Below are positions 31,620 to 32,632 of a stretch of DNA of 64,000 bases, piece after piece (the first letter of the stretch is position 1; the number at the start of each line of letters is the position of its first letter). The position numbers were made by a program, and so were the translations under genes. The stretch comes from Roseiflexus sp. (lineage in GTDB: Bacteria > Chloroflexota > Chloroflexia > Chloroflexales > Roseiflexaceae), in NCBI GenBank assembly GCA_025062325.1, contig JANXAL010000116.1:62001-126000 (forward strand). The letters run 5' to 3'. The notes below the pieces were generated by a model. It did not search any database. It worked only from the letters and a program-made list of their open reading frames with translations, and was not told the origin of the DNA.

Positions 31620-31696
31620 GGGCGATTAGCTCAGTTGGCTAGAGCGCATCGTTCACACCGATGAGGTCACTGGTTCGAGTCCAGTATCGCCCACCA
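31620..31696 (+). tRNA. tRNA-Val (anticodon CAC)
   Basis: Acceptor arms GGGCGAT and ATCGCCC pair perfectly. The D arm is GCTC...GAGC, the anticodon stem CATCG/CGATG encloses the loop TTCACAC with anticodon CAC (codon GUG), and the T arm is ACTGG-TTCGAGT-CCAGT. The discriminator A (31693) is followed by an encoded CCA (31694-31696). It has its own promoter and terminator. Confidence 0.97.
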
Positions 31697-31734: not shown

Positions 31735-32150
31735 TCTTCGGGACGCCTCAAGGTACATTGCTCCTTTTGGGCGCTAGAACGCTCCAATTCCCCCTTCTCC
31801 GCAAGCGGAGATTTTTTCAACAAGCCCTTACGCTGCATCGCCCCTTTCGGAGCCTTAGGATGCGCAAACTTCCCCTTCGCCCCCCAACCCCTTGCATGCG
31901 GGGGGCGAAGGGCATCGCGTCGCAGCGCGCAGCGCCGCGCGCTCCCAACCCCTTGCATGCGGGGGGCGAAGGGGGGGGGGGTGGGAGAAGGGGGCTGGAA
32001 GTATGAGGAGAACGAGGGCGTCAGGATGCGGCAAATCCGCTTCGCACCCTAAGAAGCCTACGCTTGAGAGGCAGGGGGGATGAGGGGACAAAGGGCATCA
32101 GGACGCGGCGAACATCCATCGCACCCGCTTGTGAGGAGAAGGGGGTCAGG
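31735..32150. repeat. 177-bp-family repeat block with duplicated inner palindrome
   Basis: Left-arm text (GCGGAGATTTTTTCAACAAG, GCATCGCCCCTTTCGGAGCC) is followed by an inner palindrome CCCTTCGCCCCCC/GGGGGGCGAAGGG (arms 31873-31885 and 31900-31912), whose central part CCCAACCCCTTGCATGCGGG is present again about 55 nt on, ending in an 11-G run (31971-31981). Then come right arms with GGCGTCAGGATGCGGCAAAT, AGAAGCCTACGCTTGAGAGG and a second copy to 32150. No gene in 31731-32262. Confidence 0.72.
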
Positions 32151-32262
32151 AGGAAGAGAGACAAAAGGCGTCGCAATGCGCAAAATACACGTGCATGTTT
32201 TACTAAGAGATGCCTCGCGTGAGCAAGCGTCACACATCAAAGCCGTTTGTCTTGCAAAAGTG

Positions 32263-32271
32263 TGATACAAT
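32263..32271 (+). promoter_or_regulatory. Extended -10 promoter of the small acidic ORF
   Basis: TGaTACAAT with TACAAT at 32266-32271. It would start an RNA near 32278, with a leader of about 100 nt before the ATG at 32378. Confidence 0.6.
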
Positions 32272-32294
32272 ACGCGATAGACGTGTCCGGCCCC

Positions 32295-32373
32295 GCTTGC
32301 TGAGAGAACAAGCCGTCTGTAGCAGTTGAGACGGTCGTTCGCTACAGACGGAGGCGGTTGTCCTCCGAGGAGG
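32295..32373 (+). promoter_or_regulatory. Structured 5' leader with possible masking of the ribosome-binding site
   Basis: Three hairpins in sequence: GCTTG/CAAGC (32295-32313), CCGTCTGTAGC/GCTACAGACGG (32313-32323 with 32341-32351, perfect 11 bp, 17-nt loop), and the palindrome CCTCCGAGGAGG (32362-32373), which includes the Shine-Dalgarno AGGAGG. The last can pair the ribosome-binding site with its own upstream half, or, between two transcripts, with another copy. It does not match any riboswitch class that I know. Confidence 0.5.
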
Positions 32374-32377
32374 CGAT

Positions 32378-32470
32378 ATGGACTACGATGACCTGCCCGA
32401 AGATGCGCCTGGCGGAGACGATGAAAACACTGGGCCCTACGCTGACGAGTATGGCGGCGAGCTGTTTTGA
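32378..32470 (+). CDS. Very small acidic protein, 30 residues
   Basis: ATG to TGA encodes 30 residues starting MDYDDLPEDAPGGDDENTG and ending YGGELF. Eleven of 30 residues are Asp or Glu, and there are no Lys or Arg, so it is strongly acidic and probably unfolded alone. The ribosome-binding site AGGAGG is perfect (4 nt before ATG), and an extended -10 promoter lies about 107 nt upstream. I recognise no family. It could be a leader or regulatory peptide, a small partner protein, or, less likely, chance. Confidence 0.55.
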   Translation: MDYDDLPEDAPGGDDENTGPYADEYGGELF

Positions 32471-32471
32471 G

Positions 32472-32589
32472 CCTTCCTCGCATGACCTTCGGGCGTGCCA
32501 GACGCACGGCGGAGACGGGTGATCCTTAGCGCTCACAGCAATTGCAGCGAAGACGCTTGCGCCCGTCGAGCGGCTGCGGTTGAGGAAGG
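32472..32589 (+). other. Possible branched RNA stem after the small ORF
   Basis: CCTTCCTC (32472-32479) can pair with GAGGAAGG (32582-32589), enclosing GACGGG/CCCGTC (near 32514 and 32567) and a small GCG/CGC hairpin. It begins 2 nt after the ORF stop and might be a 3' structure or terminator for this transcript and for the convergent gene at 32633. Pairings were found by eye only. Confidence 0.3.
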
Positions 32590-32632
32590 GAACACTAGTC
32601 ACAATCGCCCGAATCAGGGTTTCGGATAGGTT

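Follow-up and report, generated by a model that had tools for sequence, protein, structure and literature searches.

The spacer between a tRNA-Val gene and an SH3 gene of Roseiflexus sp. holds a short acidic open reading frame behind what looked like a structured leader, which raises the question of whether this frame is a gene in its own right or a by-product of a regulatory RNA or of a neighboring gene. We analyzed the locus in the window, i.e., the whole stretch of 64,000 nucleotides, and compared it with relatives that include six Roseiflexus-genus genomes (G000 to G005), G000 being the window's own. The ORF is termed w here, and an equally small relative found elsewhere in the same genomes is termed z. 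The features of the locus are the following.

31620-31696, + strand: tRNA-Val (CAC), the conserved upstream neighbor (Rfam match; kept in the genus)
32252-32271, + strand: putative promoter, TTGCAAAA followed by an extended -10, TGATACAAT, at 32263-32271 (sequence only)
32280-32309, + strand: 5' leader block common to G000, G002 and G004 (alignment)
32313-32351, + strand: hairpin with a perfect 11-bp stem, arms 32313-32323 and 32341-32351, not conserved
32368-32373, + strand: Shine-Dalgarno AGGAGG, four bases 5' of the ATG; GGAGGCG(G/A)T-ATG in 6/6 orthologues
32378-32470, + strand: ORF w, MDYDDLPEDAPGGDDENTGPYADEYGGELF, 30 codons, zinc-ligand-less microprotein with conserved frame and codon pattern
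32498-32541, + strand: 5' part of a radical-SAM gene remnant, weak match (75% identity to G003, E 0.003)
32549-32613, + strand: middle part of a radical-SAM gene remnant, with a one-base gap relative to relatives (80% identity to G002, E 4.6e-11)

Conservation and coding status of w

The earlier note on this DNA described a 30-codon ORF with 11 acidic residues and no Lys or Arg, and this description is correct, since the 30 residues include 7 Asp and 4 Glu and neither basic residue. A peptide search of 60 relatives found an intact orthologue in all six genus genomes. The other five gave full-length or near full-length matches in an open frame (93-97% over the aligned part), and identity of the orthologues to the window peptide is 90-97% over 30 residues. 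A tRNA-Val (CAC) gene lies upstream of w in all six genomes, including 5/5 of the others. Outside the genus Roseiflexus, w was not found in searches of 40-60 relatives and 26 family genomes.

Variation among the six orthologues follows the reading frame. Twenty-four sites vary, distributed 3/1/20 over codon positions 1/2/3, a skew that departs from equal rates with a chi-square p of 1.2e-6; dN is 0.014-0.043, and dS is 0.19-1.59 in 14 of the 15 pairs and undefined in one pair. Sixteen codons vary synonymously only. No replacement occurs within codons 1-24, all of them being confined to codons 25, 27, 29 and 30 among the last six. Read in the five alternative frames, the same stretch varies at 20-21 residues in four cases; the remaining frame varies at 4 and is interrupted by 12 stops. 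Codon-type conservation in relatives had been set beforehand as a check on the small-protein reading, and its presence strongly supports that reading. Judged by these substitutions, w is under purifying selection that is strong across all 24 N-terminal codons, and it is a real, evolutionarily protected Roseiflexus gene for a 30-residue acidic microprotein. An origin by chance, or as a copy of z in decay, would fit the lack of any metal ligand in w and the erosion of z itself in G000 and G004 (see below). However, such an origin runs against the selection on the N-terminal codons in six genomes and is refuted genus-wide by the codon pattern, unless the six sequences are recent gene conversions; we give it almost no weight.

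Leader and downstream sequence

Several elements that had been read in the leader are present. The extended -10 stands where it was reported, and the form TGnTAnnnT recurs in the same region of 5/6 w orthologues, G005 excepted; a promoter scan requiring a -35 hexamer did not report the 32263 site. The perfect AGGAGG is also in place, but the palindrome said to contain it holds only in part: 5-bp arms (CCTCC/GGAGG) exist, and the two-base center is without self-complementarity. The perfect 11-bp stem is real as well and rare by chance, being reached in 1/2000 single-base leader shuffles. This stem, together with a leader block in G000, G002 and G004 that is able, in the folds of G000 and G002, to base-pair with the region of the ribosome site, would suit a structured regulatory RNA or thermometer-like leader in which the ORF is incidental or secondary. 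Conservation of pairing, however, was not found on comparison with relatives: 6, 6 and 3 of the 11 stem pairs are kept in G002, G005 and G004, the three alignable relatives, and the leaders of G001 and G003 are mostly different in sequence. Pairing of the block with the ribosome site is weak, because the differences between genomes are one-sided or pair-breaking (read by eye).

Folding of the leader lies near that of shuffled sequences. With assumed start points, the window leader alone folds slightly better than shuffles (z-score -1.37; 19/200 at least as good), and the six orthologue leaders reach z-scores of only -1.37, -1.23, -0.53, 0.02, 0.46 and -0.31. The whole region of ~330 nt has a z-score of 0.01, with 53/100 shuffles at least as good. 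At 55 C, pairing of the ribosome site is within chance in 6/6 genomes (68, 88, 167, 147, 102 and 100 of 200 shuffled upstreams reach it), and an Rfam scan of the whole window matched the tRNA alone. Neither conserved pairing nor occlusion of the ribosome site above chance was found at w, and codon-type conservation is not an RNA pattern; an RNA of this kind is unlikely to be the main product of the locus. The RNA part of the earlier finding is ordinary or an artefact, and the proposal of a structured regulatory leader is not supported. Rather than on a conserved RNA switch, expression of w probably relies on a standard promoter of the extended -10 type and on a strong ribosome site, and w is probably transcribed alone in the window.

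Between tRNA-Val and w, positions 31872-31993 hold GC-rich direct and inverted repeats, among them a 30-base perfect direct repeat at a spacing of 61. The view that the spacer is otherwise repeats only is wrong, since radical-SAM gene remnants lie 3' of the ORF. The branched RNA proposed for this part is gene debris, because two pieces of that gene remain at 32498-32541 and 32549-32613. The protein encoded in relatives has a Radical_SAM domain and a helix-hairpin-helix match of 26.5, just below the Pfam cut-off of 27, and scores 276 bits against TIGR03916 (putative DNA modification/repair), under the cut-off of 343.5; no literature on TIGR03916 was found. A radical-SAM protein of the TIGR03916 type is the former downstream neighbor of w, as seen in relatives, and the window keeps only its remnants.

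A search of 40 relatives showed an open radical-SAM gene behind w in G002 and G003. Internal stops interrupt the matches in G001 and G005, and G000 and G004 yielded only a distant paralogue (47% identity). Decay of the gene is repeated within the genus (G001:C115, G005:C209); the G005 match has five in-frame stops, all TGA, and poor assembly is also possible there. In G004, w and the SH3 gene are separated by a gene with a hemerythrin domain. Whereas w is intact in 6/6 genomes, the radical-SAM gene is open in 2/6, and w is independent of it because w stays intact where the gene is lost or broken. Comparison of the six loci shows that w outlives the radical-SAM gene and does not depend on it.

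This result bears on two further readings of w. As a leader peptide (upstream ORF), w would control the radical-SAM gene directly 3' of it through its own translation, and the radical-SAM gene of G002 and G005 does start nine bases 3' of the w stop, with no clear ribosome site to itself. A leader peptide would be kept only together with its downstream gene, however, and w is intact with that gene gone (G000, G004) or broken (G001, G005). The G000 copy of w shows no excess of replacements; of its four unique sites, three are third positions and one is a replacement. The homologous start in G003 is far 3' of w, and related radical-SAM genes also occur beyond the genus, in genomes that gave no w. 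We therefore consider control of this kind improbable. A second possibility, that w is a RiPP precursor modified by the neighboring radical-SAM enzyme, draws on the position of a small ORF immediately 5' of the gene in relatives and on a Gly-Gly at mid-peptide. Yet the enzyme resembles TIGR03916 with a helix-hairpin-helix and not a RiPP maturase, and it is lost or broken in 4/6 genomes that keep w, so that no co-retained RiPP-type maturase neighbors w; this origin is highly unlikely. A small protein that acts apart from the radical-SAM gene remains our preferred reading of w.

The paralogue z and its relatives

The window w peptide finds z in its own genome with E 1.7e-6 and 79% identity over residues 1-24, and the similarity runs along most of its length. 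The z peptide, MDYDDLPEDAPGGDCPDHGPYADEECPKC, is equally small and carries a zinc-finger-like CxxH...CPxC motif; in the genus it reads MDYDDLP(E/D)DAPGGDCPDHGPYADEECPKC and variants, and it is found in 6/6 genus genomes. The N-terminus MDYDDLPEDAPGGD and the GPYADE block are unchanged between the two, and all four candidate metal ligands of z are lost in w. The comparison shows w to be a paralogue of z, presumably by duplication, that no longer has any of the four candidate ligands. In the window genome, z itself (L048, G000:C12:67157-67237, minus strand) stops at a TGA that replaces the third ligand codon and is without its final two ligands, and z of G004 lacks its last cysteine. The erosion of z coincides with the genomes that hold only the distant radical-SAM paralogue (2/2 vs. 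0/4), a number of cases too small to lean on.

Genes of the z type occur in 11/26 family genomes, beyond the genus in G006 (three), G009, G010, G011 (two) and G014, and the peptides have in common the core D-C-P-x-H-G-P...C-x-x-C. Profile searches of 400 phylum genomes gave no convincing member of the z/w family outside the family, with six loci checked by eye and one motif scan over all loci. The best candidate outside the family (G415, E 5.8e-5) was dropped, since it lies opposite a frame that we take to be phosphofructokinase-like. In G010, a 204-residue Cys-containing protein (L051, G010:C74:3747-3809, minus strand) ends in a ligand-less w-like tail, DYDDLPEAPGEDDPDNGPHAVAA (profile E 1.3e-5); a family search of this protein, including Pfam, gave no match.

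The control region of z, which lies outside the window, was compared as well. The ribosome site of z is within a short hairpin in the last 45 bases 5' of the start codon. Of ten z leaders, six have folding z-scores no higher than -3.1, and the remaining four range from -0.33 to -1.73. In four leaders the ribosome site is paired more than in most shuffles (0, 3, 7 and 16 of 200 reach it); the excess is less clear or absent in the six others (31 to 129 of 200). The hairpin sequences differ between genera, and the arrangement resembles a thermometer or autoregulatory leader; a literature search on Chloroflexus RNA thermometers found none. A -35/-10-like pair with a fixed 18-base spacing precedes z at 10/10 main loci and at 0/4 extra copies (G006, G011, G014). 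The element GTMATSTN7TWGGTMGTA, ~50-95 bases 5' of the z start (e.g., L036, L059), has 11 matches in the 26 family genomes, ten before z and one in G011 with no z seen, and its reversed control pattern has two. Its presence before z in 10/26 family genomes marks it as a putative gene-specific control element.

A scan of viral contigs for relatives of z gave six loci. Four (L165, L166, L168, L170) hold free z-like peptides of ~28-30 residues, e.g., MMTTNEPPGDAPGDDCPDHGPYGDDECPKC; L167 has its z-like sequence at the end of a frame of 110 residues, and L169 was discarded because it falls inside another long frame. These loci are predicted viral records, none of the five re-searched being graded at least 90% complete. 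Nine neighbor proteins of L165, L166 and L168, selected from all seen, were scanned against PHROGs. Six gave matches that act in replication, in recombination or on nucleic acids (replication initiator, endonuclease, Sak4-like annealing protein, SSB, exonuclease and DnaB), one matched an integrase, and two were without a match. The z peptide had no match in phage and plasmid records, and the one viral member tried against PHROGs had none for the z family.

Proposed action of w and comparison with known systems

Taken together, we consider it fairly probable that w is a real gene, a ligand-less duplicate of z, whose acidic microprotein binds the partner of z and is expressed without an RNA switch. 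The strict retention of MDYDDLPEDAPGGD and GPYADE in both genus paralogues, the freer C-terminus and the loss of ligands from w argue for a binding motif rather than for catalysis or metal chemistry. In this scheme w would be a metal-free acidic microprotein without a predicted fold. The acidic motif that it has in common with z may let it bind a partner, and it could be a metal-independent competitor of z or a stand-in for it. AlphaFold2 gave no fold for w or z (pLDDT 58 and 60), so the partner-binding step is without structural support. The z gene of the window genome is short and two ligands are missing from it, so competition between w and z may not hold there. A nucleic-acid enzyme is our guess for the partner, because relatives of z sit in phage replication/recombination modules and w once preceded a radical-SAM/helix-hairpin-helix gene; the genome context of z varies and indicates no single partner.

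As for origin, it is conceivable, though we put it forward as a rather doubtful scenario, that a phage-borne replication/recombination zinc-finger microprotein was domesticated in the family under its own promoter element and ribosome-site hairpin, and that a duplication in Roseiflexus then placed a second copy next to a tRNA gene, where it dropped its metal site and turned into a metal-blind antagonist of, or stand-in for, z. If true, the pair would form a two-microprotein switch acting on one DNA-metabolism partner. Proteins as short as w are mostly missed by gene finders, and w was recognizable from its codon pattern alone. The z/w pair would also offer a natural experiment on the roles that such a microprotein has besides metal binding.

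Among known systems, the CPxCG-related zinc-finger small proteins of archaea and bacteria, which include Brz, are defined in PMC2253796 by fewer than 100 residues and two Cys/His pairs 7-40 apart, one of them of the CPxC type. The z peptide fits this motif definition in G001, G002, G003 and G005, but not in G000 or G004, and at only ~30 residues it is very small. At 30 residues w is within the length limit of PMC2253796, but it falls outside the definition because all four candidate ligands are lost; five of the six orthologues have no Cys or His, and that of G004 has one Cys. Brz, which is shown to regulate transcription (PMC2253796), was compared by description. Its resemblance to w lies in the setting: in some relatives w, too, is a small ORF 5' of a larger gene with the same orientation.

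The zinc-finger mu-proteins of Haloferax are likewise very small, one-domain and predicted to carry zinc motifs (PMC11241148, PMC6562870). Five of 14 purified were reported to be zinc-free, and AlphaFold2 does not settle metal binding (PMC11241148). Unlike w, however, the zinc-free ones retain their cysteines, and these proteins, compared by description, are archaeal. Ruc (Rv0991c) is a zinc-ribbon redox chaperone that acts with Hsp70 (PMC7448276). It resembles z as a small zinc-ribbon protein, and z follows an Hsp70-like gene in G006, G009 and G010 (the G010 protein was run against family libraries; those of G006 and G009 were judged by likeness). In contrast to z, with ~30 residues and a CHCC arrangement, Ruc is described as having four cysteines in an N-terminal, ~50-residue zinc ribbon, as well as a tail that varies.

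NCBIfam gave no match for z or w, Pfam gave none above cut-off, and PDB gave only a short match to the zinc knuckle of PRDM4 (E 0.52). Literature searches on Roseiflexus small proteins, Chloroflexi CxxH zinc ribbons, and microproteins or zinc knuckles held nothing on the w peptide among the matches listed. The w/z family is new in the libraries searched, and w represents a known type of zinc-finger microprotein in a ligand-less version.
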